Made by a program: the position numbers and the translations under genes
In this document: positions 588 through 53,537 of the stretch, piece after piece
Layout of the letters: each line of letters starts with the position of its first letter
Position numbering within the stretch: the stretch's first letter is position 1
Origin: Tetradesmus obliquus
Taxonomy: Eukaryota > Chlorophyta > Chlorophyceae > Sphaeropleales > Scenedesmaceae
Length of the DNA stretch: 64,000 nucleotides
Assembly (NCBI GenBank): GCA_030272155.1
Contig: CP126197.1
Span: forward strand, 2,852,001 to 2,916,000
Reading direction: 5' to 3'
The notes under the pieces: generated by a model
Databases searched by the model: none
What the model was told of the DNA's origin: nothing
What the model saw: the letters and a program-made list of their open reading frames with translations, nothing else

Positions 588-2680
588 TTTAGATGCAGGT
601 GCCACACTGCAAACAGAACAGCACGGCCAGATAACACCACGTGGCCAATGCCAATGCCTTGAACCTGAAGCACAGCCTGGGCTCACCTGGCGCACCCAGT
701 AAGCTCCCTGGCAGTTGCCAAACACATTTTTGTCCAGCGCATCGACTGCGCTGGCCAGCTGGCAACCAGATGACACACGTTGCCGTTGTCAACGCCTCTG
801 AATTCAGCACTGCCTTTCAATCGAGCACAGCCTGGGCTCACCTGGCGTACCCAGCAAGCTCCCTGGCAGTTGCCAGACATATCTTTGTCCAGCGCATTGA
901 CTGCGCTGGCCAGCTGGCAACCAGATGACACACGTTGCCGTTGGCAATGCCTGTGAATTTAACAATGCATCTGAATCAAGCACAGCCTGGGCTCACCCGG
1001 CGCACCCAGTAAGCTCCCTGGCAGTTGCCAAACACATTTCTGTCCAGCGCATCGACTGCGCTGGCCAGCTGGCAAACAGATGACATACATTGCCGTTGGC
1101 AACGCCTCTAAATTTAGCAATGCAATCCAATCAAGCACAGCCTGGGATCACCTGGCGCACCCAGCATGCTCCCTCGCAGTTGCCAAACACCTTTGGGTCC
1201 AGATCATTGACTGCAGTAACCAGCTGGAAGAACTGATCAGAGCTGTAGCTCTTGACAAAGGTGGGCAGGCAGACCTTGCTGTTGTCGACTGTGCCAACAA
1301 AGCAGTTTGGCATGTACTTGCAGGTGCCTGCAGGGCAGACCAATGCAGACAAAGATGCATGCAGTAGATCAGGGATGAGCGTTGTACTAACAAAATGATC
1401 AGTGTGCATGTTAGGGTTGACCACAAGTAGGGCTGTTTGCCACGCTCTGTGTCTGCGGGTCAGGCCAGATTGGGATGCATGTGAGTCGGAGGTATGCTAT
1501 GGTTACTGTTGAAGGTTCAAGCAATGCGGGGGCTGGGATCAGCGGTCAACAGCACCAGCGGTCTGCCACGCATCACACAGACCACCGGCAGCACTGCAGC
1601 AGCCACCTCGCCACACCAGCCTTGCAGCCGCTACACTGCTCTTACTGCTGCCCTGGCCACACACACCCTCTCCAGCCTACTCAGGTGAGAGCAGTGAGTG
1701 AGTGAGTGAGTGGCTACGCAGGCGCTGCAGCCTGCAGCGGCGGCCTGGGCAGCCACTCACTCACTCACTCACTCACTGCTCTCACCTGAATACATTCCAG
1801 CGTAGCAGGCCAGCATCTGGTGGGCCTTGGTGCCTGGGCAGGCCATGGGTGGGGGGATGGTGCTGAGGCGCGCAGTGAAGTTCTGCATGCTGTACCACGT
1901 CATCTGCAGGCATGCGGGTTGCAGCATTGCAGACAGCACTAGTGTCATTGGTCTTGTACGCGACACGGCGTGATGTAGCAGAGAGGCATGCATGTGCTCT
2001 GGACATGTTTTCAAGTTGTTGCAGAGCTGGCTTCTGTAGGCTGATAAGCCACACTGATAAGTGTATTGCCTGGCGCAGCTGTTCACCCTGCCTAACTCAC
2101 AACCTGCAGGCTTGCACGAACATATGTGGTTCCAGTGACGCAGTTCACACTGCAACACATTTGCGCCCTGTACACATGGAGGTGCACCACATGGGGTATA
2201 AACATCTGCAGACTCACATCAGAAAAGTCGATGCCCTGGCAGCGCCCTTTGCCATCCTTGGACAACCACCAGCACCTGCAGGCAGTGCACACGCCATGGG
2301 CACACTGTAACACACCTTCAGGCGCAGCATGATGAGCACACTGTCTGTATGAGTATTTGATAAAATGTGTTGAATGCAATGGAACCTGAGCCACTGCACT
2401 GTTGGATTTGTTGCTGCACCTGCTGCTGCGCTGCTGCTGCGGCGGCTTTGTTGCTGCGCCTGCTGCGGCAGTGGGTGCGCAGGTGGGCTGCACTTTTGTG
2501 GATCAAAATCACAAAGGCCGCGTCTGTGTACCCTCTACCATGCGCCGCAGTTTTGCAAGCGTCAGTCTCACCTGTGCTGCACATCCTTGTTGCATTCGCT
2601 CTCTGTTGTGTGGGTCTTCAAGCAGTACAGGCCGCGCTCGCTGGCCATGAGCATTGCCCTGCAGAGCACATACCACAGGT

Positions 2681-2738
<58 letters not shown>

Positions 2739-4963: not shown

Positions 4964-7900
4964 TCAGAACTTGACTACCTTTGGCTTCTTGGCTTTCTTG
5001 GCCCCACCACCACCACCAGCAGCAGCCAGGCCAAACACCCCAGCACCCTCACCGCCACCTGTCTGCTGCTGCTGCTGCTGCTGCTGCTGCTTCCCTTTCT
5101 TCTTGTGTTTCGACTGCTTGTTTGCTTCATCTGCGCCTAACGAAAAGTCAAAATCGTCATCCAGCGCATCGCCACTCACAAGCGGCTGCTGCTGCGGCCG
5201 CTGCTTCTGCTTCTTGGCCGGCGCCTGCTGCTGCTGCTGCTGCTGCTGAGGCGCCTCTGCTGCTGCTTCCTGCATGACCTGATCAGCAATGCTGCTGGCA
5301 AGCTGCTGCTCCTCCACCAGAGAGGCCAGCTGAGACTTCAGCTGATCCTTGCTCTTCTTCGGCTCTTTGACTGTTTCTTTTGGCTTCTTTTTCTTGCCTG
5401 CTTTGCTGCTGCCCTCCTCATCCGCCTGCACATCACCAGCAGCAGCACCTGCTGCCGCATCCTCCTGCTGCTGCTTGTGCTTCTTCTTCTGCTTCTTGTG
5501 CTGCTGCTGCTCCTCTGCAGCCTGCTCCTCCCCTCCCTCCTCTGCTGCTGCCCGCTTCGACCCAGCAGCACTCTCCTGCTGCTGCTGCGCTGCCTTCGCA
5601 TCTCCTTCCTCATCCCTTTCTGCTGCTATGTCCATTGCCCCAAGCTTCTGCAGCGCTGCCTTCACTCGCTGACTCAGCATCGGCTCAGCCACCTTCACAC
5701 TGCTCTTCTGCGCCACCTGGCCGGGCGCTGCTGCCTGCACTGCTAGCACTGCACTGCCTGCCAAACTCTCTTTGGGGCCTATCTCCAGGCGCACCTTCAC
5801 GCCGCGCAGCTCCCTGCAAAACAGCAAGGCAACATGGCAACATGGCATTGGCACCATAAGAAGATACTTATTAGGTTGCAGTAGTGTCCGCGCATGCTAG
5901 CAGCGTCACCAGGACAGGTAGCAGCCGCAAGTTGAATGGGGTGGGTTGGTTACACGAACAACAGTACAGGACAAGCGCAGCAGCCAGCACTGCGCTGCCA
6001 GCCACGCTCCCCCTGGGGGCCTAGTTACCACACCATACACCCCACACTCCTGCAGCCCAAAACACGTTGGCCACCCAGCTGACCCACCGGCCACGGCGCA
6101 GCCAGCAAGCCCTCTGACGGTTGCTTCATCCTCTGCCCTGGCATAGCGCTATTGCCGTCATCTACAACTCTGCTTATGCCACCCTAGGGTTTTTGAAAAT
6201 TGACGTTCACTTGTGTTACATCCTAGTTTGTCTTGGGTTGACCCTCACCAGTACTCCATCTTCTGCCCTGGCACGAACCTGTTGCTGTCATCTACACCCC
6301 AACTTATGCCTGCCAGCACTTCATCAAATTCCAAACCTCACTCACTCGCTTCCACAAAACCTCCAAACCTTAACACTCACCAGTACTTCATCTTCTGACC
6401 TGGCACGAACCTGTCGCCGTCATCTACACCCCAACTTATGCCTCGCCAGCAATTCATCAGATCCCAAACCTCACTCAGCTTCCACATAACCACCAACCCT
6501 TAACACTCACCAGTACTTCATCTTCTGCCCTGGCACGAACCTGTTGCCGTCATCTACACCCCAACTTATGCCTCGCCAGCACTTCATCAGATCCCAAACC
6601 TCACTCAGCTTCCACATAAACCAACCTTGCCACTCACCAGTACTTCATCTTCTGCCCCGGCGTGAACTTGTCGCCGTCGTCGATGCGGCAGGTGAGCCCG
6701 GCCGCCGTCAGCAGCTGCTGCGCCTTCTCTGACGCGTCCAGGATGCGCTGCGACTCCTCCTTGCGCTGGTGCCACGCGATGGGCAGGATGATCACCTGCA
6801 GCAGCGCAGCACAACATAGGACCACGGGTAAGCAATGAACAGAGAACAGAACAGTAGGTGTGCCTCCTTGCGCTGGTGCCACACGAAGGGCAGTATGATC
6901 ACCTGTCACAATTTCAGCATATCTGACAGAGAAGCACAGCATAACAGCAGGGCAGCGAACATCGGACAGTAAACAAACATCAGCAAAGGGATGTGTGGTG
7001 GCGACATGTGCGTGCGTGTGAAAGGATGGTGAGAGCACCATGAGAACAGGCTGCTGCTTCTGCCAGTGTCAACCGCAGCTGCAGCTGCCGCGGGGTGCGA
7101 GACTCAGCTGCTGTGAGGGCCACAACTGAGCACAGCAAGCAAGCATATGTTTCCTGCAAGCTTGCAGCACTGTGCTCCTACCATCAACCAGGCAGTGACA
7201 TATTCTAATCCCGCTGGCTGGAGCACATACTATCCCCTGCGATGGCTTCAAGAACTACAAACAGAACCTCATCCAGCATCAGCGCCAGCTGCACATGCAG
7301 ACTCACATGGTAGGGAGCCTTGTCACGCTGCGAGCTCTTGATCTTGACCTTTGCCTTCTTGTGCTTACTGCCCGCGCCCGCAGCACCACCGCCACCACCG
7401 CCACCTCCTTTGCCTGGGCTCTTGCTCTCCTTCTTCTTTTTGAAGACCTTGGGGTCATAGCCGCGGCCCTCTGCCCGCAGCTTCAGCGCAAGGTCCTGCA
7501 AGCAGGATGCAGCAAGCACATGTATTAACGGTGCCGCAACAACAGTGCCACAGCTTCAGCACCAGGTCTTGCAAGCAGGTTGTAGCAAGCAAGGCAAAAC
7601 AAACAAAACAAACAATTGAAAACACGGATTGGCAGCAGTGTCATAACAGCTACAGGTGGTGTGAGTCTTCAAGGCACGCATCAGGTGCCTTGGCTGCAGG
7701 CAGAGCTATGCTTCAGGCAACATGCTAGGCATCTGGTACAAAGAAAAAGAACAACCGCGTTTCAATTGCTGAGCCTGCCGTTATTTCTTTGAGTGTCTTT
7801 CATGTGTTGTTGTCTGCTGCTGCCGCTGCTGTCACACAGCAGCAGCGCTGCTGCTTACCCTCCTGCGCTTCTGCTCATTCCTCCGCTGCTTCTCCTCCGG

Positions 7901-10892: not shown

Positions 10893-13800
10893 ATGGACAA
10901 ACAAGCACAGGGCGCCTTGCTGGACGCTTTGAAGCTCGTGCTGTACTGGTTACTATCTATAGCGAGCGTGGGGCTAGGCCTTTACTACAGAAAGAACAGG
11001 TGGGTGCAGACATGCTGTCCATACCTGCAGAGTAGCTTCCCACCCACCTCATCGTGCCATCAAATGTTTGCATGCATGCTCAGCCTGCTCTGATGTGCTC
11101 ACCTGCTGCAAAACCTGGACAACAACTTGCAAGCAGCTGCAAGTTTGTGCCTCTGACTTGCGACTACATACCCCTAAGCAACAAGTCTGTTTCCTGCAAG
11201 CCGCAGGTCTAAAGGATGGACGCTCTACAAGTTGATTCTGGGCACCATCATCTGCCAGACAGCATATTGGAGCATGTGGGCGGTGCACAACTCCGCTGTG
11301 CGCTCAGTGGGCTTGGGCAGGCTCACAGACAACCTGTACAGGGTTTGCATCCCGCTGAATCAGCTGGCAACAGCCACATTCATGGTGCGCAGGGGAACTT
11401 GGTGCAGTGCACTGGTGGCAGAGGTTGGATTGCATGCTGCAAGGGCTGTGAAAAAACATTAGCCAATGACAGCAGCGTGTTCAGGCATTGTTCAATGGCA
11501 ATGCAGCATGCTGGCTTGTGTTCGTTGTGCAACAGAGGTGCCAATGGGGTTCGCTAGGCTCGTGTCACTGAATCCAAGGGTTGGCAACTGCATATGTAGC
11601 GGTTGAATGTGGTTTTGTGGCGTGGTTTGTGGCTGGCTGCTGACGTTGCAGGTGCAGCAGGCAACTGACAGCGTAGCTCCTGGGCACTCATCAAGCGCTG
11701 ACTCGTGCATGCACACATGCTCCAACAATTTGAACATGCCTGCTGTGCCCTGTTTCCTGGTGTGTGCAGGGGCTGCTGCTAGTGTTGGCAGCTGGTTACT
11801 GGTGAGCGGGCCACATATACCTAGGACAGGTCGATTGCGCACAATTGTGCATGCGTGCATTCAGCAGTGGCTGACAGCAGCAGCTGTGGGAGCTCTTCAA
11901 TGCAAGAGCATGCATGCACACTCAGCGCAGCAGGGTACCCAGATTGTTGGCCAGCCCACATACTTGTGCTTCAGATGCTGTTGCCTGGCAAGTGTAACGT
12001 TGTGGCACAGCATGTGTGGGTGCGTGTTGTTCTCATGTTGCCAACTCTTTTGCCTGTCGCTTGCTGTTGCTCCCTTGCAGCATCACGCGCAGTGACCTGG
12101 GTGACTACAAGCTGCAAGTGGTGGGGCTGCCAGTGCTGCTCTTCGTCACAGGAGTGGTGAGCCACCGTAGCAGCAGCTGCAGCAGCAGCAGCAGGGACAG
12201 CTGCAGTGCTGCTTTTTGTCACGGGAGTGGTGAGCAGCATGATGGGCATGACGGGCGGCAGCAGCAGCAGCAGCAACAGCTGCAGTGGGCACTTCATTGT
12301 GTGGCGTTGGCGGCAGCGGGCATGATCAGGAGTGAGACCTGCAGCAGGCCGTGTAGGCATCATGGCGGAGCAATGACTTCACGAATTGGCATTGACGCCT
12401 AGCGGGGACACTGGCATGTCCTCGGCAGCCTGTGCAACTGATGACAGCTTTGTGAAGGGCAAGTGCCTGCAGCAGCTGCCCACAGCACACCACAATGTAG
12501 AGGCATTGCAGCCTGCCGTCACACACTTGGCTCGCCTCAGCTGTCAACCCGATGCGGCCGCCACTGCTGCTGCTGGCACCGGCTGCTGCTGCTGCTGCAG
12601 GTCACGCAGTACATCAACTTCCAGCTGCTGGAGGCCTCTACAGACCAGCTGAATGTGCTGGACATGGCTGGCTGGGAGGCGGGCCTGTTTGCGGTGTGCA
12701 CGTTTGCCAACGTGGCGGCGTTCCTGTTCTGGGTGGTGTACATCTTCGAGATCATCCAGCTGGAGGTGGACGCGCTGCGGGCACAGCAGGAGGTGAGGCG
12801 CATTGGCTGGTGCTTTTATATGTATCTGTCATGCTGTGGCTCTCACTGTCTGTGCGCATAACTGGTTTGTGGGCATTCGCTATCATCCAGCTGGTGATTG
12901 GAGGTGGACGCGCCGCCCGCACAGCAGGAGGTGCGGCGGTGTTGGTGCCGCGTGTCAAAGCCTTTCACCGTGATGCCTGTAACATCTACTTCGTGGTTAT
13001 GCAGTTGCCAGGTCCAATAAGTTTGTAGGTTCTGAATACGACATGCAGTTCTGCATGCTCAAACATCAACACCACCATCCTGCTGCTTCCCATCTTCTTT
13101 GCTGTTGCAGTCCTAAGAGTCCTCTAACCTGGTGCGCAACGCTGCGCCCAGCACCACAGTCGCTCCCTTCCCAGGTGGCTCACACACACAGCCCTCAGCC
13201 GCCGCAAAAATATTACAATCACAATAGTCACACTCCAACCCTGCTGCTTGTGTTATTGCTGCCGCAGCTCAACCTGGTCCGCAACGCTGCCCCCAGCGCC
13301 ACTGTTGCTCCCTTCCCTGGAGGCTCACACACACAGCCCTCAGCCAACCCACACGCCCTGCCACCCAGCAACATGGATCCAGAATGGGCGCGTGCTGCTG
13401 CCGAGGAGGGTTTAGTGGCCTACAAAAACCTGCTGGGGCCCAATCAAAACATGAGCCACATCCCGGGGGCGGACGTGGAGGCGCAGGAGATAACAACTGT
13501 GGCCGACATGCTCAACTTTGAGACCAAGAAGCAGATGTACAAGCGCTTCAGCACGGGCTTTGGAGTCTTCATGATCGCACAGCTCTGTGAGTAGGGCTGG
13601 TTTTGTGTGGGCGTATGATACCAATATGATACCAAGAAGCACAGGTACAAGCGGTTCAGCACCGGGTTTGGCGTGTTCTTGATTGCACAGCTCTGTGAGT
13701 ATGCTGACCACTACGCAGGGCTTGCCTTCCAGGCGTCTGGGAACTTTTGTTTGAAGAAGTTTTGGGGGTGGGGCAGCCAGCTGCTTGTATACCATCACTC

Positions 13801-19221: not shown

Positions 19222-20186
19222 AGGGCTGCCTGGTAAGGCACTGCTGCGGCTGCTGGACCTGCTGGCAGTTCTTATCCCGCCCCTGGATGGCAGCCCGGCA
19301 CTGCAGCACCTGCAATGCTTGAAGCTGGGGCCACCTGCAGAGTGTGCAGCAGCAGCAGCAGCAGCTACCAGCCATACAGCTGGAACAGCAGACGGTGTTC
19401 CTGCAAGTCAGCAGCAGCAGCAGCAGTGGGATGATGATGAGGAGGGTCCAGCAGGCTGGCCGCAGCCGCTGTTTGGGAAGCTAATGCGGCGGCTGGCTGG
19501 GGCGCCGCTGCTGCTGCTGCTGCAGCAGCTGCAGGTGCTGGAGCTGTGGGGGCTCAGCAAGCAGCAGCAGAAGGAGGTGAGGCCATGAAACAGGCAGACT
19601 AGTGTATGTGGTTTTGGGTCAGCAGTTGTTGCTACAGGTGCTGGAGCTGCGGGGGCTCAGCAAGCAGCAGCAGAAGGAGGTGAGGCTATGGAACAGGTCG
19701 ATTGGTTTCTGTGCTTTTGGGTCAGGGTTTGCTGCTGCAGGTGCTGGTGAGCTGTGGGGGCTCAGCCGGCAGCAGCAGAAGGAGGTGAGGCTATGAAGCA
19801 TGCAGACTAGTTTATGTGGTTTTGGGTCAGGATTTGTTACTGCAGGTGCTGGAGCTGTGGGGGCTCAAGCAGCAGCAGCAGAAGGAGGGGAGCCTTCAGC
19901 AGAAAGTATGTGAAGACATGCAAAGGCATGTGTTGTGACATACACACTTGGATGCTGCAAGTTCCATTTTCAGCAGACGTTGCTGAGCTCTAGCACTATA
20001 GACACTGCTCTTGCACCACAGACACTGCTAGTGGCGTGCAGGGAAGGTTCTTTGTGGTATGTACAGCCCTGCTGTCACTTGCTGGGCGGGTGGTATGCTC
20101 TGCGTTAGGCATCAGCTCTGTTGCCTTCTGCCCTGCTGTGCCTTTGCAGGTGTTGCTGCACCTGCGGCGACTTCCAGCCACACCCT

Positions 20187-26795: not shown

Positions 26796-29700
26796 ATGCT
26801 GGCAGTGGCAGTGGCCGTCTACTGCTTGTGCACTGCTGCTGTGCAAGCAGCAGACAGCAGCACAGCAGATGCCGGCGTGCCTGGCGCATCCTTTTTTGAA
26901 TCATTCGGACCCGGATGGCAGGACAGATGGCATTACAGCAATGGCAAGAAGTATGAGGGCAGGTTTGACACTGTGCAGCCAGAGGGGTACCAGGACACTG
27001 CGATTCAGGTGTGCTGAAGTGACAGTCGGGAGTGCATGCCAATGATGCAATGGATACATCTAGAGGACGAAACCTTTCCCAGCAAACATTTGCCTGTACA
27101 AGAACTGCGATGAGTTGTGCTGTAGAAACTGCCTGGCAATCAGCAGGGTGTATGTGGAGAGAGGCAGGGCTGCTAACTGCTGCAGCAGCATGTGCATCAA
27201 CCTCCAGTTGCAATTGAAATCAAATGCATTTTCAAAAAAGCTGCAAAGCAGTATGAAGCAGTGACACTCAACCTACAAGCATTGGCATCTGCCTGTCACC
27301 AAAGGGCAGTTGCCGCAGACTCTGCTAGCGCGTGGTCAACTGCTGCGCTGCGACGCACCCACTCTGACAATCCTGTGTTGCTTTCCAATCTGCCTTTACC
27401 GAAATCCCCCGCCATCCTCCCACTCTTGCCATGACAGATGCCTGCAGGAAACCAGCACTACGGCATGACAGCACAGCTGCAGGAGCCGCTGCTGCTGCAG
27501 GATGGCATAGTCGTGCAGTACGAGGTGCAGTTCTCCCAGGGCCACACCTGTGGGGGTGCATACCTCAAGCTGCTGTCCCAGACAGCAGAGGAGTTCAAGC
27601 CAAGGAAGTTGCGGCCCAAGACACCTTTCAGCATCATGTTTGGGCCGGACCGCTGCGGACCTGACAGCAGGGTGAGGCTGCGGCTGGCTGTAAAGGAGTA
27701 GAAGAGGGTGCATGCAGCAGGCTGAGATGTGCCAGGGGTGTTATGCAAAGAGCACAGGCTGGTAAACGTCAACGTCAGCTGCCTGTGTACTCATCATTCT
27801 TGAAGATTATGTAAAAGGCACGGCAGCTTGCAGGAGACATGCAGCAGTGATGTTGGCTCTGCCAACAGTAGGTTTACAAACGCGTTTGCTGAATACCAAC
27901 ACGTGCACTGTTGACAATATGGTATCCAGATAAGGCTTGTGCACGCTGGGCTGATCATGCTTCTGTTGCTGCTGCTGCTGCCGCAGGTGCATGTCATCCT
28001 GAACGCGCTCAACCCCGTGACGCAGCAGGTCATCGAGCACCACCTCATGTCAGCGCCAGCACCAAAAGATGACAAGCTCTCACACGTGTACACACTCGTG
28101 CTGTACCCCAACCAAATGTGAGTGGCTTGGCGCGTACTCACACGAGACAACCAGTGCAGCTGCACTGTGCTGTGCAGGCAGTGCTAGTGAGCCAAAGCTC
28201 CTGCAGGCTGTAGCAGTGGATGCGCAGCAGCAGCTGCTGCCTCTGCAAGCTTTAGTGTCATCTTCTCAACTGCCAGGACTTCCTGCCAATGCACACGTTA
28301 CCAAGTAGGCTCGAGAGACCCTGCAGACCAAGTTGGTTTGGTTTGGTGAGGTACGATCAACGCCTGCCTGCCAATCCTGCTTTTTCTCAAACCAAACATG
28401 CACGCAGGTACAAGGTGCTGATTGACGGCAAGCTCAAAGGCACGGGGCTGCTGGCTGCTGCAGACTTTTCACCGCCACTGCAGCCACCTGCGGAGCTGCC
28501 AGACCCCGAGCACATCAAGCCTGAGGATTGGGTGGAGGAGGAGGAGTGAGTTGTTGCATCAGTTGTGTTTGTGACATTTATGTTGCTGTATCAGAGCAGT
28601 CACAGCCTTGTTTGCGGCGCTGGGCCAGCAGCAGGATCGATGGAACAATAGGCCAACCAGTCATTGCTGAAACCGCACGGGTGTAGCACAGCCTACCAGA
28701 CATCGCGTGAAGCAAGTGAGCTGCGCAGCTGTCCAACGGATCGCCACCGCACCACATCAGCATGTTCAAGTGCATGTCATGCAGCATGTTGCGCTGACTG
28801 TCTGCTGTGCCCTTGCAGGATTGACGACCCGGCAGCAGTCAAGCCAGATGATTGGGACGACCGCAAGCTCATGTGACACCCGCGCTGCTTCCCGCACTTA
28901 CTGCCTGCCGTGCCCTTGCCGTCAAGCCAGATGACTGGGACGACCGCAAACTCATCCCGGACCCCAATGCACAGAAACCTTCTGTGCTGTGCTGACGACT
29001 TGCGCCTGTGTGCAAACATCCTGCAGGATCGACGACCCGGCAGCAGTCAAGCCAGACGACTGGGATGACCGCAAGCTCATGTCACACCTGCGCTGCCTGT
29101 CTTACCCACTGCCTGCCGTGCCCTTGCAGGATTGACGACCCAGCAGCAGTCAAGCCAGATGACTGGGATGACCGCAAGCTCATCCCAGACCCAAATGCAC
29201 AAAAGCCTCACGGCTGGCTGGATGCGCTGCCGGCTCGAGTGGCAGACCCGGCAGCTAAGAAGCCGGAAAAGTGGGACGATGATCGGCACGGTTACTGGAT
29301 GCGGCCCAGTATGCCGAACCCTGCGTGTGAGGGTGCTCCAGGGTGTGGGCCGTGGACGGCGCCGATGATCAGCAATCCGAGCTACAAGGGGCCGTGGATC
29401 CCGCCCAAAGTCAAGAATCCTGCATATAAGGTGGTTTGACGGTTGCAATGGACCTCTTTCGTGGATGTATGTGGGAGTCCTACATGCAATGAGGCATCGT
29501 GCCATATGGTATCCTTGCAGGCCCTGCGGGGGTAGACAGGAGAGCGCTGTGGTTGCTGGGCTAGTGCATGGGTCCAGGTTTCAGCCCTGGAACTGTTGTG
29601 GACCGTATTGTACTGTACAACGGCACTGGTGCGCAACACACACCTGAACCAACCATTACTGCTCACTTCCACCAACTTTGCCTGGCGCCCTGCACCTCTC

Positions 29701-31314
29701 TGATGCTTCACCGTGCCACAGGGCCCCTGGCAGCAGCGCACGCTGCCCAACCCGGCCTACTTCGAAGCAGAAGCACCAATGTCCTTGCTGGCACCCATAG
29801 TTGGCATTGCCTTCTATGGATGCCAGCTCTGGGTGACAGAGCCGGGTTACACCTTGCTAGCCCGCTTTTGTCGATGCATGCACAAACCACCAAATTAGTT
29901 ATGTCTACCTCCCTGCACCGCTGTGATGCTTCAATGCACCTGCAGGGCCCCTGGCAGCAGCGCACACTGCCCAACCCAGCCTACTTCAAAGCAGAAGCGC
30001 CACTGTCCTTGCTGGCGCCCATTGTTGGCGTTGCCTTTGAGCTCTGGGTCACGGAGCCTGGGTACACCTTCGACAACATACTGATAGGCAGGGGGCAGCA
30101 GGGCTTGGAGGCTGCTGCTTACATGGGCAAGGCGGGGCAGGCGCGGCGGCTGGCACAGGTGAGGTGGATTATAATGGTGGCACTTTGAGATGGCAGCATC
30201 GCACAGGTCTTGAAACATGCGTAGTCTCAAATGAACTGCATGCACTGCTGTTGTTGGCAGCAGTAGCAGCATCATGGCATGGCAGCAGACGCTGTGCCCG
30301 GCCAATGTAGACCTTGTTGTGCTCTCTCCTTCTATCTGACCGCTTATTCTTGGTGATATCCATGTCCTGCACTCACACTTGCAGGAAGCAGCAATAGCTG
30401 CTGCTGCACGGGACGCCAGCAGGCCGCCCGGCTGGCGTCACTGGCCAGCCAACCAGCTGTTGGACGTTTTTGAATCCCCGAAAATGACACCATACCAGGC
30501 CCAGCTGCAGCCAGTGGTGGCAGCACTGCAGCGGCAGCCGTTGTGGGGCTGGCTGGCGCCGCTGCTGCTGCAGCTGATCGTGCTCAGGATGATCAACAGG
30601 TCACTGGTTGGCAAGTCGGTGAGCATTGCAGCAGCTGGTGTGGGTGCGAGCATGCCTGCAGCATTGTTGTGCTGCGATGGAGAGGGGATGGGTAGCTCCC
30701 GTCATTAGCATGCTGTGAGGGGGCGCTGGCGAATTGCTGCAGTTGACTCTGCAGGATTGTGGAAGCTGGGTCATTGGCTTATATACCCTGTGCACAGCAG
30801 CTACTGGTGTGTCCCCTGCTGCTGTGCTCCACTGCAGAAAATCAGACTACTGATGTGGTATGTTGCGCTGCTTGCAGGGTGGCAGAGCTGGTGCCTCACT
30901 GCTGAGCCTTGCTGCTGCCTTTGGCTTTCATGCTTGCAGGGTGGCAGAGCTGGTGCTGCTGCACCCACAAAAGAGGAGCTAGAGGAGGCCGCAGCACTCG
31001 AAGAAGACCGAAAGGCTGAGGAGCAGATAAAGCAGGACAAGCAAGCAGCCAAGCTCAGAGCAGCGAGCAAGGCAGCAGCGGCTGCTGAGGCAGCAGCAGC
31101 AGCGGATGGTGGCGGCAGCGTTGCGAGGCGCCGCAGCACGCGGCACCAGCAGCTGCAGCTGCAGCAGCAGCATGAGGAGGAGGAGGGGGAGGCAGCGATG
31201 CATACGCCAGCTTTGCAGCGGCAGCAGCAGGAGGATGGTGCTGGCAGCTCTCCCGAGGATGGGCAAGGCACCAGCAGAGCCCGCAGCACGCGCAGGACAG
31301 CAAGAAAGGCGTAA
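26796..31314 (+). CDS. CNX: Calnexin, ER lectin chaperone
   Basis: Eight exons (26796-27008, 27438-27671, 27987-28117, 28408-28545, 29130-29430, 29946-30158, 30385-30618, 30940-31314) join in frame to 612 residues. The start is the ATG at 26796, giving the signal peptide MLAVAVAVYCLCTAAVQA. Luminal lectin-domain signatures follow: IVVQYEVQFSQG, CGGAYLKLL, IMFGPDRCG with the conserved Cys pair, and HVYTLVLYP. The P-domain has the DDPAAVKPDDWDDRKLIPDP and KKPEKWDDD type repeats and GPWIPPKVKNPAYKG. One transmembrane helix (WGWLAPLLLQLIVL, 30545-30590) distinguishes it from calreticulin. A cytosolic tail of about 130 residues is charged and ends RRTARKA, with dibasic pairs suitable for ER retention. 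It binds monoglucosylated N-glycoproteins during ER folding. Confidence 0.95.
28818..29185 (+). repeat. P-domain exon start copied four times
   Basis: GATTGACGACCCGGCAGCAGTCAAGCCAGATGA-type segments start at 28820, (partial) 28918, 29028 and 29130. The first and third are preceded by TGCAG. The second keeps the continuation ATCCCGGACCCCAATGCACA but lacks the start. The copy at 29130 is the one that stays open. Confidence 0.85.
29720..30060 (+). repeat. Calnexin exon 6 duplicated as a near-complete copy
   Basis: 29721-29860 (GPWQQRTLPNPAYFEAEAP, LLAPIVGIAF, LWVTEPGYT) precedes the functional 29946-30158 (GPWQQRTLPNPAYFKAEAP, LLAPIVGVAFELWVTEPGYT). Both have AG acceptors in the same phase. The first has a 5-bp insertion (ATGCC) region and then loses the frame, so it is probably a dead duplicate. 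Confidence 0.85.
30877..30960 (+). repeat. Calnexin exon 8 start duplicated
   Basis: GCTTGCAG|GGTGGCAGAGCTGGTGC appears at 30871-30892 and at 30932-30956; the second continues into the real exon. Confidence 0.85.
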
Positions 31315-32607: not shown

Positions 32608-33325
32608 CAGCCGCCGCCAGCAGCAGCACCAGCACGCCTCAGCCGCTGGACGATCCAGCGCCATCCAACGCCCTGGCAGTGAACGCACTCTCGTACGTGT
32701 CAAGCATCACAGCTGCTCTGCTCATGACGCACTGCCGCCGGCCTGAAGACACAGCGCCCCTCACTCGGGAGCCTCTTAGCGGCATTCGCAAGGCGCTGCT
32801 GCCACGCATGCGCCAGTTTCTGTTTGCGCCAAACCCCCAGGTTGTACAAGCAGCCCTGCAAACAGCAGGCATCCTGACAGGCCTTGCAATGCTTCCTGGG
32901 TTTGCACAAGTTGAGCAGATGATCACATGATTGACCGGCATCCCACCCGCTGGGTGCTTGCGCGCTTTTTCGATTCTGGCGCAGCAGTACTTACGCCGCA
33001 GCAGCTGCGCAGCTTGCAGGAAGGGCTGCAGACAGCACTCGGGGCTGTCAGTGACAGCGGCCCTGGAGTCAAACCTATTGCCGTTGACTTTGACTTTCCT
33101 GCAAGCAGCTTCCAGGAAGTGGCGGTGTGTGACGCCTGTGGCCGGCACAACTACTTCCCTGTGCTGGTGCGCTGGGCGTGGGCGGAGCCCTGCCAGCTGA
33201 AGGCTTGCAGCGGCTGCAGGCAGCGGTGTTATTGTAGCGCAGAGTGCCAGAAGGTGCACTGGCAGGGCCACAGGCAGCGCTGCAAGGCGATGCAGGCGCA
33301 GCGCGCGGCAGAGGCAGCAAAGTAG
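31919..33325 (+). CDS. MYND zinc-finger protein with an internal frameshift
   Basis: Exon 1 (31919-32167) and exon 2 (32463-33325) join in phase 0 (ACACAG|GTGACG ... CTGCAG|TCCTAC). The N terminus reads TTVAELQQYLQKDPW, TLTFDFLEGHDEQQAYVELI; the middle is helical (YVSSITAALLMTHC). The C terminus is a MYND finger, CDACGRHNYFP followed by CSGCRQRCYCSAECQKVHWQ and HRQRCKA, normally a protein-protein interaction module. At 32919-32934 an 8-bp tandem duplication (ATGATCAC|ATGATTGA) shifts the frame after PGFAQVEQMI, so the finger is out of frame with the upstream part, ending at a TGA at 32928. The downstream frame (from 32927) is intact to the stop. Either this allele is broken, a sequence error is present, or two proteins are made. 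A Ser tract lies at 32572-32630. Confidence 0.7.
32175..32236. repeat. (CAG)20 tract directly after a splice donor
   Basis: A nearly pure CAG run starts 8 bases after the exon 1 donor of the MYND gene. If unspliced it would add a poly-Gln tail and stop (QEY). Confidence 0.9.
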
Positions 33326-33427
33326 TGTAAAGCACTGCAGCACACTTTGGAGATGTTGTGCACAAAGCAGCAACAGCGCTGCACGGCGATGCAGGCGCAG
33401 CGCGCGGCAGAGGCGGCAAAGTAGTGT
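33262..33427 (+). repeat. MYND gene 3' end duplicated past its stop
   Basis: CAGCGCTGCAAGGCGATGCA...GCAAAGTAGTGT (33273-33330) is repeated at 33374-33428 with two changes, including the stop codon TAG. A TGTAA, the usual algal poly(A) signal, follows the first stop at 33326. Confidence 0.85.
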
Positions 33428-37585: not shown

Positions 37586-38761
37586 GCTGCTGCCGGTGCT
37601 CTTTGCCATCGCCAGTGCTGCCCTCAGGCTGCTGGCCTCTGCCCGCAGCACTGCATTCTCTGCTGCTGTTGCGCGGGCTGTGAGGGTGACTGTTGCCAGC
37701 TGCCCGCGCAGGCTGCTGTTGGCTGCCCTGCTGCTGAGCAGCTCCTCCTGCAGGGTGACCACCAGTGCCTGGGCAAAGGAAGGGAACAAGAGGCAGGCAG
37801 AAGCACAAGCTCAGCTCAATGTTGTCGGTTTGAGAGGTTTATTCACCAATTGCACAGCTCCTCCTGCAGGGTGACCACCAGCGCCTGGCAGGGCACAGCG
37901 GACAGCAGCAGACAACAAGGCAGCCGAGGCAGACAGATGCACATTATCAGAGTAATCTTGAGCGAGCTCCGCAGCTAGTTAGGCTAAGCGGGCAATGTGT
38001 CAGACAATGGCGTCATGCCAGCATTGTGACGGCATTAGTGCTTGACCAGTCAGCAGGATAACAGAGACTGATGCATGTGGCGCCCGTGGCTGCTGCAAGC
38101 AATGACGACCTGAAGCTGCCAGGGTTTGGCACTGTCTTAAACACAAGCTGGCCTCTGCTCACCATCTTGCGCTGCCGCAGCTTGCGTGCAGCTTCCCTGT
38201 TGGTCAGGCGCCTGCGCAGTAGCAGTAGGCAGGCGCACACAAATGAACACAGAGATTTAACTCACCATGGTTACAGATGAACCTGATGCTGCAGTAGGTG
38301 TTCACCACAGCGATAGACTGCATGCATACGAATGAGCTCACTGAGCTGATGATCAATGTACACGTGTCAGGCAGGCATGCACAGCTTGGCTGCAGGACGA
38401 TGCCGCCACAGCACAACATGGCACCTGCACTGCAGCTATCCCACTCCGCCACCACCACCACCTGCACCACTCAACTTACTTTAACACAACCGCATCACAG
38501 GCATCGCTATAAAAAACCCCAACAAAAGATGCAAAGCCGCTCACGTCTTTTCTCTGCGCTCCTCCTCTGTGAGCTGCTCCGCCTTTCTCTCCTTGAGCTG
38601 CTGCAGCCGCTGCTGCTGCAGCGCCACCAGCAGCTGGCCCCGCTCCGCCTGCAGCTGGCCATGCTGCTGCAGCCAACCTTGGACCTGCTCCTGATCTTGA
38701 TCTTGATCCTGATCCATGTCCTGCTGCTGCTGCATTTGGTCGTCCGCCAGCTGCTGTTCAA

Positions 38762-42769: not shown

Positions 42770-44137
42770 TCACAGTCTGCTGTCAGCACCTGCCAGCATC
42801 TCGCACATCGCCTCTGCTGCTGCCTGCCCGCTCAGCACTGCATTCTCGATGCCCCCTCCCATGCAGAAGTCCCCGCAGGCTGCCAGGCGTGCTGTGTCTG
42901 CCTTGAGGCAGGGGCTGCCAAAGGGCTTGGCAGGGAATGCTGCACCCCAGCGGTGCACCTGCAGAGACAGACGTACCGCAGCAACAGTGGCATTCGAATT
43001 CAAGCAGAGCTGGATCTCATACCTGTTGGCATGTTGTATGTGTTATGCTGTTTGTTTGCTGACGCAGGCAGCACAGCCAAGTGTGCACAACGTGCGTACG
43101 CACTCTGCAAACCTAAACAGGCGTAGACTTGCTCGTCGCGGATCACGCAACAAGGCAGGCCAGCGCATACAACGCAGCCCCATGCCCCATGCTACAAACC
43201 TGTTAGCACTCTCCAGTATACAACCTAAACAGCAGCAACGTACAGCACTCACCTGCCTGCACAAAGCCGCACACCTACCACAAATGCACAAAACACCACG
43301 CACCTGCACAAAGCCCGGCTCCTGCAGCTACCCTTCTGGCAGCCTAGTCATGCACCGACCCACCGGACAAGATATCGCATGTTTTATCAAATTAGTAACA
43401 CCACCCACCTGCACAAAGCCGGGCTCCTGCAGCTTGCCGTCAGGCAGCAGCGGCGCAACCCACCTGCACAGACAGTCCTTCGCTCGCGCGCTGAAAGTTA
43501 TAGCAAACAAGAAACACAACACATACAACACATATGTAACAAGATAGCATATACTCACCTGAACAAAACCAGGCTCCTGCAGCTTTCCGTCTGGCAGCAG
43601 CGGCGCCAGCGCGCGCTGCAGCGCCCCAAACATGGGAGGCACCAGCTTGGCCAGCAGCTCGGGTGTTTGAGGAGGCAGCGAGCCGTCAGGGTTGCGCTGC
43701 ACCAGAGTAGCTGCAAACTCAGTCGTGGCAAGGGCCACCACAGACTGGATGCCGTCTGCGCGAGCGCGGCCCTGTGATTGCACGGGAATGATGTATCAGA
43801 AGGGTGCGGAGGTTGTGTAAGACTGCAAAGAGGGTGGCGAGCGCCACGAGGGACCAGATGCCATATGTACGTGCGCAGCGGCGCTAGAAGCGGGCTGCAG
43901 CATAGCTGCTACACAAGTTGGTACCCTTGCAACAATCACAATGTCACAACACAAACACATACACATGGCAGCTTCTCCCACGTGCTTACCCGAATGAACA
44001 ATCATCCTTGCTCACTCACCGGCTTACTAGAGTCCACACATATCCACGAAATCTCCGGCGAGTTGGTCACTGCTGCTGCGTCAAACGGCAGCTCCAGCAC
44101 CTGCTTCACCAGCTGCTGCTGCTGCTGCCCGCCTTCA

Positions 44138-44179: not shown

Positions 44180-45209
44180 TGCTGCTCTAGCGGCAGCTCC
44201 TGGGGCTGGTATGCCATGAGCAGCGCCAGCAGCGGCGTGCTGCCCACTTCTGACATGGCCTGCTGCATCTTCTGGCCTGCTGTGGTGCCTGACAGCTCGA
44301 CGTAGCCGGGGGTGCCTGCACAAACATAATACATAATGCAGGTGAAGGAAAAGAACACGGTTGTGCTGCAGACTCTTAGTTGGAGGTTTTGGCCTGCTCT
44401 GGTGCCCAGAAGCTCCACGCAGCCGGGGGTGCCTGGTCAGAAGAGCAGGGGCAGGCAGGAGAGTGGATTGGTGTATTGATTTTCAATCACCCAGGTTCCA
44501 CGGCGTCAATGGCTGCTGCTGCTTCAGGACGCGCGCATGTGACAGCGTGCTACCTCTCGCCACACAACAAACCACGCATCAAAGGTGATGCTGCCTTTCA
44601 TCAATTCTTTGGAACAGCCACCTTTTGAAAAAAAATCCCTGAGTTTCTGAAGTACCAAAGAAAAATGGCACGCCTGCTCACCGCTGCAGCCGGTCATCTT
44701 GTCTGCTAGCACCAGGCCATCATAAACCCCGAGGTTCCACGGCCTCACCGGCGGCTGCTGCTTCAGGTCAGCCAGCGTACGTGCAGGAGCCCGCACCGCG
44801 CCCTCCAGCAGCCACTGCTGCGTGCTGGGGTCATAAGCGGCCTTGGCCACCTGCAATACGCATGACACAAAGGGCACACGGATACAGATGAGTTGCTGCA
44901 AAGTGGATGTCTGTCGCACCACGCCCTCCAGCAGCCACTGCCCCGTGCTGGGATCATAAGCTGCCTTGGCCACCTGCATGTGTCAAGCGCAGCGCAGAGA
45001 CCCTGGAGGGAGCAAGTCAGGAAGTGCATCTAACGTAATAGGTCTGCCACAGCGTGCCCTCCAAACTCATGCCAGCATCTCACAATGCTCACCTTGACGT
45101 CGTTGCGCACTGTGGCGCCCGATGCTGCTGCTATGTGGCTGGTGATGGCGTCACTGGAGGGGCAGCCCACGTACAGCGGGCCGGGCGCCAGCACGTCCAG
45201 GAACCTGCA

Positions 45210-45274
<65 letters not shown>

Positions 45275-45355
45275 TTGAGTAAGCTGCGTCGAATGCAAGA
45301 GGAGGGGCAGCCCGCGTACAGCGGCCCGGGCGCCAGCACGCCCAGGAACCTGCGC

Positions 45356-45400
<45 letters not shown>

Positions 45401-46688
45401 TTGAGTAAGCTACGCTATATGCAAGTGGAGGGGCAGCCCGCATGGAGAGGGCCAGGCGTCAGCACGTCAAGGAACCTGCACAACAGCAGCGAGAGTTTTC
45501 CCTGTAAGATGCAATTGCACGGCAATTGTAACGCTTGGGAGGATTTTCAGTGAGTGGTGTCGGTACGTGCTGGTGAGCAGCATACATGTGGCAGTTGAGC
45601 GCAAAAAGTTCCATTGCGCAGCACTTTGCAGAGCCCAGACAGCAGAAGAGACTGGTGTAGGCTGCTTGTGTGCTGCGTGACGAGCTGAACTGCGATGCGC
45701 TACCATTTGTGGTGTACAGACAACCGAAGCAGCAATTGCACCGCAACTGCGTGTCCTTGCTGCTGCTTGCAGCAACATGGCCCATTCAGACGTGACATCA
45801 TATCATCCTGCTGCCCCTGCTGCTCAGCACTCACTATCCCTTCCGCACCCAACCCACCCTGCATCACTTGCCGCGCCCTGCTGCTGCTGCTGCTGCTGCT
45901 GCCACTGCGTGCGCGGCGTGACTGTGCCGCTGGCTGCATCGTAGCGCACGACTGCGCCTTGCTCCCAAGGAGCCAGCGCCCCTGCTGCTAGCCACTCTTC
46001 ACAAATTGCCTTAAAGGTGTCGCTGGCTGGCCTCACAAACTGCAGGCCATGGTCAAACTGCAGCCCCTGCCATGTGGTCCTGCGAGTGGTGATGCGGCCT
46101 CCTGCAGGTTGACCAAATTGAGTGGCAGCGGGCGGTGAGAGGTTCAAAGTGAGCGCATGATGGATGTAGGCTGTAGCTGTGCATGTGGTGCTTTCTTTTG
46201 GTTGGAGGGTGGAGTGAGCCGGGGAGTCTGGCACATCGTACAGCACAGTGACAACTGTGGCTAGGGCAGCTGAACAGGAGACCCTACTTGGGTTGTTGCA
46301 GCAAATCGCAGATCACAGCCAAGCAGCTAACTACATGATTGCAATGCTTCTGCAGCTGCGGGTAAACACACTGCACTCGCATTCATATCCTTGCATGTGC
46401 TGGTGCCAGTGCTGTCTGTCGCTGCTGGTGCTGCTGCTACTGCTGCTGTATGGCCTGACTACGCAGCTGCTACTTGCCTGGCGCGAACTTGCCCATGTCG
46501 AAAACTGTAACGGCATGGCCTTGTTTTGACAGCACGTGCGCGCAGTGCAGCCCACTAACGCCCCCTCCCACCACAGCGACCCGCCGAGTGCCAGTAGCAG
46601 ACATAGCCACACAGCGCACTGCTGCTGGTCTGATCGCGCTTGCGTTGATTTGTCCGACAACTCGGTTTATGACTTTACTGTAGAGCAT
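42770..46688 (-). CDS. Renalase-like FAD/NAD(P)-dependent oxidoreductase
   Basis: Seven exons (46688-46478, 46101-45858, 45204-45093, 44850-44682, 44315-44020, 43771-43559, 42958-42770) join in frame to 477 residues. After a 30-residue basic leader, possibly a plastid or mitochondrial transit peptide, comes the dinucleotide-binding fold RRVAVVGGGVSGLHCAHVLS (GxGxxG type) and APGGRITTRRTTWQG, the GR(x)nTRR FAD signature of renalase-type amine oxidases. FDHGLQFVRP and the C-terminal LAACGDFCMGGGIENAVLSG (GD...G-x-E-x-A-x-x-SG) close the FAD fold. The substrate is unknown. A Gln/Ala insert (44200-44110) interrupts exon 5. The first intron appears to use a GC-AG pair (CCAG|GCAAGT at 46477). Start is the first ATG at 46688; 46604 is an alternative. 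Confidence 0.85.
43290..43605 (-). repeat. Three copies of exon 6 donor edge
   Basis: On the minus strand GGCAAGCTGCAGGAGCCCGG...GTG-CAG precedes a donor in three blocks, at 43559-43605 (functional, LLPDGKLQEPGFVQ|GTGAGT), 43405-43470 and 43298-43345. Confidence 0.85.
44270..44440 (-). repeat. Exon 5 start duplicated upstream
   Basis: The real start at 44315 (GTPGYVELSGTTAGQKM) is echoed at 44388-44435 (CACCCCCGGCTGCGTGGAGC on the minus strand). Confidence 0.75.
44740..44975 (-). repeat. Exon 4 start duplicated upstream
   Basis: CAG|GTGGCCAAGGC...AGCAGTGGCTGCTGGAGGGC at 44850 is repeated from 44975 (VAKAAYDPSTGQWLLEGVV). A short piece of the same exon (AGCAGCAGCCATTGACGCCGTGGAAC, minus strand) also recurs at 44493-44520. 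Confidence 0.8.
45150..45480 (-). repeat. Three copies of exon 3 start interleaved with CAG arrays
   Basis: CAG|GTTCCTGGACGTGCTGGCGC at 45204 (functional) is copied at 45351 and 45476. Long CAG tracts, 45213-45273 and 45357-45402, sit between the copies. Confidence 0.9.
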
Positions 46689-47179: not shown

Positions 47180-47251
47180 GGGGGCATCCGGGAATCGAAC
47201 CCGGGACCTCTCCCACCCGAAGGGAGAATAATACCACTATACCAATGCCCC
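47180..47251 (-). tRNA. tRNA-Pro (anticodon CGG)
   Basis: The minus strand folds as a complete cloverleaf: acceptor GGGGCAT/ATGCCCC, anticodon stem CTCCC/GGGAG with loop TTCGGGT, T arm CCGGG-TTCGAAT-CCCGG. Anticodon CGG reads CCG proline codons. Base 73 is C, the usual eukaryotic tRNA-Pro discriminator. TTTT follows immediately (47176-47179), a Pol III terminator. There is no intron and no encoded CCA, as expected for a nuclear gene. Confidence 0.95.
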
Positions 47252-47335
47252 TGCAGTGCAGGATTGGGGGTGGGGACATGACCGCCACACGTTTCCCAGC
47301 TCAAATAAACGCAAATTTGTTATTTCGGCTTCGAA

Positions 47336-47425: not shown

Positions 47426-47429
47426 CAAT

Positions 47430-51044: not shown

Positions 51045-51437
51045 GGGTTGCACTATGCCAGTCTCAAGCACAGGGCGGCCTAGCTGAACTTTCTATGCTA
51101 ATAGTTGCTTATAAAAGCCAATAAAAAGAACTCAATGGCTTTGCTGATCTAAGAGTGCAGTGGACACCTTGGCCACACCAGCAGTGTAATCAGGTGTGGT
51201 TTCCAGACGTGTGATCAGACTCAACACGCTTTCACTGGTTTGAACAGAGCAGTCAAACATGATTGTCAGCTGGTGTTGTGCTGGACCTTGTGACTTGACC
51301 GACGCTTCGACTTTGCAACAGTTTCGTTTCACGTGCTACTTCTCGGGAGCGAGCCCGCGCATTCGCCCATCTGTGCAACCACAAACATATACCGCAGCGT
51401 TTCCTGGAACGATCCTTGCGATACACAACGGGACACG
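51045..51437. promoter_or_regulatory. Divergent promoter between PEX4 and PII
   Basis: The 393 bp separate the two start codons. TTATAAAAGCC at 51110-51120 is a TATA-like element; its orientation is not determined. Confidence 0.4.
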
Positions 51438-53537
51438 ATGGCTCTGGCTTGCAAACCCCAGTCGCTCTGTGCTGCACAGCGAGTGCAAGCAGCTAGCTGC
51501 AGGTGCGACATTTTCCAGCGTTCTCATATGTATGATGCAGTCATCAGCTTGAGGCACGCCAATGTACGCTGCTGTGTCTGTATGCAGGCCTGTGCCTGCT
51601 GCACTGCCAGCTGCTAGGGCTAGGGGTGTGTGCTATGCCGCTCCACCACAAAGTGCAACATATAAGGAACTGGGATCCATCACTTGCGACCTGTCAGCCT
51701 TCCCCACAGTGCAGTTCTTCCGTGTAGAGGTAAGCACAGCGGCCAGTGCTTGAGGCTTGGGCTGCAGCAGCAGCATCAACAGCTACAGCCACAGCAGGGC
51801 AGAACAGCAAAAGACACGGGGGCAACAGCATATCCTTGTTTCATAATACACCCTCAATGCATGCTTTTCAACAGAATTGTTCAACATTTGCAGCAGTAGA
51901 GGCCGAATAGCGAGTACTGAAGCTGTTGTGGGGTCAGCGTCACCTGCTGATTGTTTGCAGCTGCCCAGTCAAGTTGCTTGACGTCTTCTACCGATAGCAC
52001 GCAGCAAGACGCAGCCAACAGCAATGTTCCACCTGTTCATCCTGCACTCACCTTCCGCTGCTGCTGGCACCGCCTCATTCTGTGCAGGCCATTGTGCGCC
52101 CGTGGCGCCTGCCGTATGTGATCAACGCGCTGGGCGATGCAGGCATCCGCGGCATGACAGCAACGCCAGTGCGGGGCGTGGGCATGCAGGGAGGTGCGTG
52201 AACTTGCAGGGAGGTGCAGCAGCATGCGGGCGTTTGGGGCATGACAGCACGCCAGTGCGTTGTGTGGGCATGCAGGGAGGTGCATCAGCACAGCTGTACA
52301 CATGGCTGCCATGCCAGCTGACTCTGTTGGTTGCAAAGATGCTACACCGTGACACATTTGTACCGCACTGTTGTGTGACACCTCTTGCACCACCGAGGAG
52401 TACAGCTGTATGCTTGATGTGGTCATGGCTGTCGTGCCGTCTGACTCTTTGCATGCATATGCATAAATTCACATGCAGGGCGCAAGGAGCGCTATGGCGG
52501 CAGCGAGTTCAGCCTGACTGATTTGGTTGACAAGACCAAGGTGGAGATCGTGGTGGTCAGGTGCGCTGTGTGGCGGCAGCAGCAGCAGCAGAGACAGCAG
52601 CAGAAGCAGCAGCAAGTAAGCAAGCAAGCGCTGTCTGTCGATGCAGCGGTTGACCTCATTGGAAAACGCGGCCGCGTGTGTTAGCTGCACCAGCGCATTG
52701 GGGCATGACAGCAGCATCATTGCCATCAGCAGCACAAGCAGCAGCCTCTTTCGTAATAATGCCACCTGCTTCTGTCTGTCTGCCGGAACCAGGTGGACCT
52801 GGTGGCGCGCACAATGGCCACAAGTCAATGTGTATGCACCCCTGATTGATTGAAGTCATTTCCGGTGTCTGCAGGGACCAGGTGGACCTGGTGGCGCGCA
52901 CAGCGGCCACAAGTCATGTGTATGCACCCCTATAAATTTGATTCATTTTTGGTGTCTGCAGGGACCAGGTGGACCTGGTGGCGCGCACAGTGGCCACGTC
53001 ATCGCACACCGGCGAGATCGGCGACGGCAAGATCTTCGTGCACCCGGTGGCTGACGTCGTGCGCATGTGAGCGGGCAACAGCATCACCGTATTGACGATT
53101 GTGGCGTCATATCAATTGCATGACAGCATATCGTGATGATCTTCATCACATTTATTTGTGTAATACGTGCGCGTCGGCTCAGGACGCACGCTGCTGATTA
53201 TCCTGGTTGTAATGATCACTTCCTGCACAGTTGCAGCCTGGTCCAGACCATGAAGCTTTTCATGCCTGGCCACAACGACCCCATTTCAATGACATCGTTG
53301 TACGCATTCACATGCCTTGGCATGCGTCGCACTGACGCCTCGCCGCCGTATGCTGCATGCCTGCCCTGCGCCCTGCTCTGCCTGCTGCTCTGTTTTCATC
53401 TCCCCTGCAGCCGCACTGCTGAGGTGGGTGGTGTTGCGGAGCGCATGGCTGGCGGGCTGGAGGACATGCTCAACAGCACGCCCACCAGCGCAGCACCCAG
53501 CGCTGCAGGAACCATGGACCAGGCGGCCCGCAACTGA
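51438..53537 (+). CDS. GLB1: Plastid PII nitrogen/2-oxoglutarate signalling protein
   Basis: Six exons (51438-51502, 51588-51729, 52088-52193, 52479-52560, 52962-53066, 53411-53537) join in frame to 208 residues. The first 60 or so residues are Ala/Arg/Ser-rich ([20 protein letters not shown]) and fit a chloroplast transit peptide. The core reads [38 protein letters not shown], the T-loop [28 protein letters not shown] and the B-loop [14 protein letters not shown]. The C-terminal [15 protein letters not shown] matches the Q-loop region that lets plant and algal PII sense glutamine. It should be a trimer binding ATP/ADP and 2-oxoglutarate and activating N-acetyl-glutamate kinase for arginine synthesis. 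The usual plant-PII Ser-phosphorylation site is not assessed. Confidence 0.97.
52150..52285 (+). repeat. PII exon 3 end duplicated with donor
   Basis: GGCATGACAGCAACGCCAGTGCGG...GGCATGCAGGGAG|GTGCGTG at 52151-52200 is repeated at 52236-52286 with a 1-nt deletion and a GTGCATC donor. A short extra GCAGGGAGGTGCAGCAGC lies between them. Confidence 0.85.
52786..53010 (+). repeat. Three tandem copies (~87 bp) of PII exon 5 start
   Basis: GGACCAGGTGGACCTGGTGGCGCGCACA-type segments start at about 52788, 52875 and 52962. The second and third have a perfect GTGTCTGCAG acceptor in the same phase. In the first two the frame runs into intron (GTGTATGCACCCCTGA). The third is the real exon. Confidence 0.9.

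Follow-up and report, generated by a model that had tools for sequence, protein, structure and literature searches.

Intron growth is usually attributed to transposons, and introners and other mobile introns change many introns within one genome. Tandem duplication is a further established source of introns (PMC3443670; PMC2891723). In the AGGT model, as set out in PMC3443670, a duplicated exonic AGGT segment creates a new intron, and duplication near coding sequence is tolerated as the spliceosome removes one copy; in the introns ascribed there to repair with end joining, short direct repeats bracket an inserted stretch and mark a new intron. For potato RdRp, PMC4974935 describes one plain duplication across an intron-exon boundary, with ten differing nucleotides: the segment crosses the acceptor edge, takes along the putative branch site, pyrimidine tract and 3′ splice site, and has given rise to both an extra piece of exon and a new intron. 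Here we describe a related pattern in the green alga Tetradesmus obliquus, analysed in one assembly (104.66 Mb, 17 contigs) that includes a window of 64,000 nt on contig C7 (bases 2852001-2916000). In the window and in conserved genes elsewhere, exon edges and their splice signals are found again as copies within the neighbouring introns.

In whole-genome family searches for HSP70 and CCT chaperonins, at least five exons were flanked by partial matches covering just the exon start or end, as at C17:238408-238605 (profile 159-224), which is accompanied by partial matches at 238664-238738 (158-182) and 238794-238865 (159-182). A kinase on C15 (profile 156-203 and 172-201) and a GTP-binding protein on C16 (profile 62-118 and 78-122) gave comparable partial exon matches, and no partial exon-edge matches were seen by eye in the actin and DEAD helicase searches. 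Exon matches in HSP70, CCT and kinase loci were used to define 63 introns outside the window by reading frame, profile position and GT/AG. These introns are predictions, and the sample is enriched for affected genes, as some loci were fetched since copies had already been seen in their family-search rows; incidence is therefore biased upward. The repeat search included 130 nt of each adjoining exon, and overlapping alignments were chained into families. We see 22 families in 19 of the 63 introns, 13 at acceptor and 9 at donor edges. They are clustered: five of the seven introns of the C17 HSP70 gene and three of eight in the C13 gene carry edge copies, and 17 predicted introns of four HSP70 genes (on C7, C3 and two on C1) carry no family. 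As the original prediction for the window had supposed, the copying is not local, with edge families also present in conserved genes on other contigs.

All 22 families include an exon edge and none is purely intronic, and the 44 family-free introns lack a purely intronic repeat even at E 0.01 with a looser complexity filter. Under random placement (periods 83-164, median 124.5), 44-49% of families would be purely intronic, and the chance of seeing none among 22 under random tandem duplication is 3e-6 to 4e-7; for just the seven families with similar flanks, described below, the same chance is 0.009. In this count, a purely intronic repeat that overlapped an edge copy would have been merged by the chaining into that edge's family. 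Repeat edges in the defined introns are thus non-random with respect to splice sites, in line with what had been proposed. Inverted alignments in the 63 introns numbered four, at two places. In the 1114-nt intron of a CCT gene on C16 (locus L076), an inverted acceptor-edge copy (-4 to +31) adjoins a direct copy, the two lying in a 75-nt imperfect palindrome whose limit is again at the splice signal.

The copies lengthen introns. Introns with families have a median length of 413 nt, against 268.5 nt for those without (Mann-Whitney P 2.5e-5), and subtraction of the outermost period brings the former to 285 nt, indistinguishable from 268.5 nt (P 0.97), which supports the view that copied length accounts for the extra intron length. 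The earlier suggestion that this process builds introns applies to the lengthening of existing ones, and not to a gain of new introns by AG|GT duplication. Genome size, G+C content and long introns are similar to those of T. obliquus UTEX393, for which Table 1 of PMC5966456 gives 108 Mb, 57% G+C (our window has 52-65% per 2 kb) and a mean intron of 462 bp, compared to 230-302 bp in four other green algae; in that table the earlier, fragmented T. obliquus assembly (1,368 scaffolds) has the longest introns among the five algae compared.

The copied blocks have a recurrent anatomy. In the nine donor families the shared block ends 5-26 nt into the intron; in the acceptor families it starts 4-8 nt before the exon in 7 of 13, just inside the exon in one, and 23-124 nt into the intron in five. 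The block extends 14-102 nt into the exon and, in single-copy families, makes up about one quarter to two thirds of the period. A copy retaining its GT or AG is present in 21 of 22 families, and the pyrimidine share before the 13 outermost acceptor copies is 0.619 ± 0.026, compared to 0.680 at real intron ends and 0.483 mid-intron. When the flank of the outermost copy was compared with that of the working edge, using cross-family pairs as control, the two were unrelated in 15 of 22 families (9 of 13 acceptor, 6 of 9 donor), despite blocks that are 79-99% identical. C17 intron 344, for example, has 70 of 71 nt identical and flanks that differ in this comparison. Neither this comparison nor a local-alignment test shows flank similarity for C13 intron 351 (96% over 49 nt) or C9 intron 382 (95% over 43 nt). 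The claim that exon edge and adjoining intron are copied as a tandem unit suits the 7 of 22 families with flank similarity, but not, judged by this comparison, the 15 in which the outermost block does not appear to be part of a longer exon-plus-intron unit. Within arrays the spacers repeat, near-identically in C17 608, in the kinase array C8 938 and in the two inner copies of C13 860, which indicates that whole units were re-copied by ordinary tandem duplication. In five of seven arrays conservation is higher in the copied exon part than in the spacer, and the outermost copy of C13 860 and C17 300 are each intact in one part and decayed in another. Decay is graded as had been described, with block identities of 70-99%.

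This anatomy can be set against the described systems. As in the AGGT model (PMC3443670), surplus copies lie near coding sequence and are removed by splicing; unlike in that model, an existing intron is lengthened, all 22 blocks span or adjoin an existing junction between conserved exons, and the block is usually not the whole unit. The potato segment likewise crosses an acceptor edge, but here many genes are affected and flanks are often unrelated. Direct repeats bracket the inserted stretch as in introns formed by repair with end joining, but here each repeat consists of a splice signal and 14-102 nt of exon, and it is old introns that are extended. As with introners, many introns are changed within one genome; unlike introners, a genome search with two copy-bearing regions found no dispersed relatives of the spacers besides distant paralogous exons and one CAG-rich match, so an origin of the spacers as mobile elements is not supported for these regions. 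Two further candidates were rejected: tandem exon duplication of the kind that gives mutually exclusive exons, as each of the 22 families has one edge only and no complete exon with both sites, and minisatellite expansion, as all 22 families lie on exon edges and full-length similarity is found mainly between re-duplicated units. We found no description of a genome-wide exon-edge copying pattern in the literature searched, whose coverage leaves out subscription journals.

Within the window, self-alignment (direct repeats up to 3 kb apart, trinucleotide runs removed) gave 53 direct-repeat alignments and 2 inverted ones, and dinucleotide-shuffled versions gave no direct-repeat alignments in each of 20 shuffles, so the exon-edge copying into flanking introns first noted there is real. 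Two low-complexity pairs, separated by 985 and 1537 bp, were set aside and the remaining alignments grouped by eye into 28 tandem families, with nearest periods of 62 to 224 bp and 1-4 copies besides the working edge. Splice edges were predicted from open frames, GT/AG and protein resemblance. Eighteen families are tied to such an edge and one (family H) to a stop codon and the start of a 3′ UTR, making the "more than twenty" of the original prediction slightly high. These 19 families, in window coordinates, are as follows.

652..1237, minus strand: donor edge (family A); junction ~1151, copies ~996, 841 and 686, period 155; all three copies retain GT, each with 3-4 synonymous and 10-11 nonsynonymous differences over 25 codons.
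6124..6681, minus strand: donor edge of an anticodon-domain-like gene (family B); junction 6637, copies 6510, 6380 and 6248, decayed copy 6124-6180.
6756..6905, minus strand: acceptor edge of the same exon as family B; junction 6795, one upstream copy, period 107.
7475..7591, minus strand: acceptor edge; upstream copy that has lost its AG, period 73.
12745..12938, plus strand: donor edge; junction 12792, decayed copy ending at 12930.
13126..13345, plus strand: exon start (family D); working copy from ~13271, copy 13126 without AG, period 145; 6 synonymous and 1 nonsynonymous differences over 25 codons.
13519..13701, plus strand: donor edge (family E); junction ~13586, copy 13694, period 108.
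19525..19895, plus strand: donor edge array; junction ~19576, copies ~19679, 19784 and 19887.
28797..29208, plus strand: acceptor edge of a calnexin-like exon (family F); working edge 29130, copies 29027 and 28819, partial copy 28918; all differences synonymous (3:0 and 3:0 over 16 codons).
29688..30070, plus strand: acceptor edge of a calnexin-like exon (family G); working edge 29945, copy 29721, period 224.
30869..30956, plus strand: acceptor edge; working edge 30939, copy 30877, 26 nt identical.
33275..33427, plus strand: end of the MYND gene (family H); the 3′ UTR holds a copy of the stop codon plus a few nt, period 99.
37739..37888, minus strand: acceptor edge of a bZIP-like gene (label unconfirmed); working edge 37768, copy 37884, period 116.
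43292..43606, minus strand: donor edge (family I); junction ~43558, copies ~43408 (synonymous:nonsynonymous 5:0) and ~43303 (5:5, carrying a stop).
44270..44435, minus strand: acceptor edge; working edge ~44316, copy ~44433, period 117.
44792..44978, minus strand: acceptor edge (family J); working edge 44850, copy 44973, period 123.
45155..45490, minus strand: acceptor edge; working edge 45204, copies at periods 145 and 271.
52137..52283, plus strand: donor edge of a PII exon (family L); junction 52193, decayed copy 52279.
52777..53002, plus strand: acceptor edge of a PII exon (family K); working edge 52962, copies 52875 and 52786.

The other nine families (2772, 3290, 12126, 17716, 18918, 23349, 24056, 25779 and 44490) have no edge assignment, and some may be purely intronic, intergenic or coding. 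Among the gene labels first given, Pfam bears out PII (E 1e-7 for the exon of family L and 1e-4 for that of family K), calnexin (Calreticulin, E 5e-12, in the working exon of family G) and MYND (zf-MYND, E 8e-7), whereas the exon of family B matches HGTP_anticodon at only E 0.003, below the cut-off. A doubtful Kelch match (E 0.046) is all that was obtained for 44527-44982, and Pfam scans of 1134-1496, 12983-13591, 37682-37810 and 43331-43795 gave no match at 0.05.

Coding differences between working edges and copies were counted using the nearest copy per family in 36 families, namely all 22 from conserved genes together with 14 of the window's 18 splice-edge families (left out were three without an ungapped copy at 72% or more, and 30869). 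Over 624 codons there are 106 synonymous and 84 nonsynonymous differences, with a synonymous rate of 0.173 per codon in the window and 0.168 in the conserved genes (~0.17 overall). Synonymous differences are under-dispersed (0.65) and nonsynonymous ones over-dispersed (2.14, P 1e-4), with no correlation between them (rho -0.16). Simulated dead copies of uniform, exponential or gamma ages show a positive correlation and wider spread, and no more than 0.5% of runs come as far as the dispersion or correlation seen in the data; for uniform and gamma ages this covers three synonymous fractions and three detection limits. A single common age is compatible with the synonymous spread (P 0.06) but not with the nonsynonymous one. 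Neutral dead-copy models of varied age are thus rejected, and the initial picture of locally made duplicates decaying neutrally is not supported as it stood. Between intronic copies, third codon positions account for 50 of 93 variable sites in 14 arrays (P 6e-5), a bias that differs by family and is not seen in window families A, B, K and 19525, nor in C9 688. To say that copies differ solely synonymously would be too strong, as the nearest copies in conserved genes have 63 synonymous and 38 nonsynonymous differences. Judged by these patterns, the copies behave as if they were descendants of coding sequence whose divergence was already present and of fairly constant size.

The best explanation we can offer, held tentatively and at somewhat less than even confidence, is that exon edges undergo short templated repair which draws in part on a diverged homologous copy, with the products tolerated because splicing removes the surplus. 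One-ended repair synthesis followed by end joining can leave tandem duplications. We infer that repair of a break in an exon near its edge would begin with short, templated synthesis from one end, running across the edge into the intron, and finish with end joining. The splice signal and the adjoining 14-102 nt of exon would in this way be copied, time after time, as direct repeats into the neighbouring intron. Whichever copy is joined to the exon body would stay working and the remainder would be spliced out, each round lengthening the intron by ~60-230 nt, and selection would retain only outcomes with intact mRNA. In later rounds, whole copy-plus-spacer units would be re-copied as ordinary tandem duplications. 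The template, or the present working edge, would often be a homologous copy pre-diverged by ~0.17 synonymous changes per codon, candidate sources being another haplotype, a strain or a lost homeologue. At this divergence exons still match and introns mostly do not, so similarity would often stop at the splice signal, and purely intronic families would be missing from the 63 introns because introns are no longer alignable. A diverged homologous source would also give two unrelated yet intron-end-like flanks, and coding-like differences among copies. The block of family H, which ends just past the stop codon, agrees more closely with boundaries determined by coding conservation than with boundaries determined by splicing. 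Derivation from paralogues was rejected for two HSP70 cases, in which the gene's own exon is identical at 74/84 and 63/68 positions and the best of the paralogues compared at 61/84 and 56/68.

Several observations weigh against templated repair from a diverged copy. Searches with two regions found no close second gene copy in the assembly, which leaves the divergent source hypothetical; in addition, for alleles of a single species a synonymous distance near 0.2 is high. Flanks are similar in four acceptor families and partly so in three donor families, as plain tandem duplication predicts, and the local-alignment test shows some flank similarity in the single-copy families C17 344, C17 557 and C9 413 (z 4.4-5.7), the weak match in C17 344 (z 5.5) arising although this family is counted among the 15 with unrelated flanks. 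Just beyond the splice signal, residual similarity in the 36 families (0.349) is not significantly above that on the inner side (0.276, P 0.18) or in cross-family pairs (0.284, P 0.07). Some copies contain stops and frameshifts. The overall synonymous share would be normal if third positions mutate faster (fsyn 0.36-0.42), so that only the dispersion and correlation tests survive this possibility; amino-acid changes exceed synonymous ones in 5 of 22 nearest copies (C13 322, C17 289, C3 411, the C9 688 acceptor and the C8 938 donor), and codon frames in the window were picked by eye, on the basis of open frames and protein resemblance. The nine unassigned window families could include purely intronic ones.

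The main rival is plain local duplication, in which random 60-230 bp segments are tandemly duplicated, survivors with intact mRNA are kept and surplus copies decay neutrally. It probably explains array growth, with the near-identical spacers of C17 608, kinase C8 938 and the inner C13 860 copies, as well as the seven families with at least partly similar flanks, to which the local test adds C17 344. It also agrees with the finding that intron length minus copied length equals copy-free intron length, and PMC4974935 reports, in one potato gene, a tandem duplication of 83 bp that lies wholly within an intron and another that crosses a boundary. As an account of the whole pattern we consider it possible but doubtful, as it predicts 44-49% purely intronic families where none was seen in 63 introns, leaves flanks unrelated in 15 of 22 families despite 79-99% block identity, and does not give synonymous differences that are under-dispersed and uncorrelated with nonsynonymous change. 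The high identity of blocks between unrelated flanks, and the partly intact, partly decayed copies of C13 860 (outermost) and C17 300, would be explained by gene conversion from the working edge that refreshes copies while intron parts drift. Conversion ages should vary, however, so that synonymous and nonsynonymous differences rise jointly, which is not observed, and we regard conversion as improbable; it also leads us to expect third positions to make up no more than about half of the differences between intronic copies, against a pooled value of 0.54, which is a weak point to hold against it.

Old copies might instead be kept by selection as alternative or poison splice edges, as the retention of GT or AG in 21 of 22 families, the pyrimidine-rich stretch before acceptor copies and the third-position bias among copies would lead one to expect. 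Yet read-through from a few HSP70 and CCT copies, inspected by eye, meets stops or the wrong frame, nearest periods are divisible by three in 12 of 36 families, which is the chance level, some copies lack an AG or carry stops, and a poison edge would need no amino-acid conservation; such a function is unlikely for the copies as a class. In-frame use of copies as alternative exons was rejected: family I is open across its copies, but periods overall are not multiples of three. An assembly or haplotype-merging artefact, with two diverged haplotypes stitched at exon-intron borders, would yield diverged exon copies with unrelated flanks. It is very improbable given up to four copies, some with stops and frameshifts, spacers that repeat in arrays, and 19 of 63 sampled introns affected, and, provided that the lineage is the same, the earlier fragmented assembly already has long introns (mean 462 bp; PMC5966456 Table 1).

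Under templated repair from a diverged source, if that reading is true, introns hold a readable record of recombination between diverged lineages. A more specific form, which we put forward as a speculative and rather doubtful possibility, is that intronic copies are fossils of a diverged functional gene version: abortive one-ended repair would leave the old edge in the intron and install the other version as the working edge, and introns would then grow while recording past exchange between diverged lineages. Whatever their origin, copies of a gene's own exon edges are borne by 19 of the 63 introns in our enriched sample and explain the added length. They offer a graded set of natural splice-edge duplications, running from 99% identity down to barely recognisable, that is suited to studying intron lengthening, the choice among duplicate splice edges and the repair mechanism.

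Some other features of the assembly were also observed. Many CAG/GCA/CTG runs occur in the window, inside and outside open frames. A tRNA-Pro (CGG) gene lies at 47180-47251 on the minus strand, and a 915-codon open frame at 55432-58176 on the plus strand has ankyrin repeats (Pfam Ank_2, E 2e-21) along with numerous runs of alanine, glutamine and leucine. A reverse transcriptase frame at 60687-61778 on the minus strand (Pfam RVT_1, E 1e-21), with a long glutamine/serine-rich run near its start, looks like a retroelement. On contig C2 of the assembly (G000), two DEAD-helicase matches with identical scores lie 3.6 kb apart (8541825 and 8545417) and probably represent a recent gene duplication.

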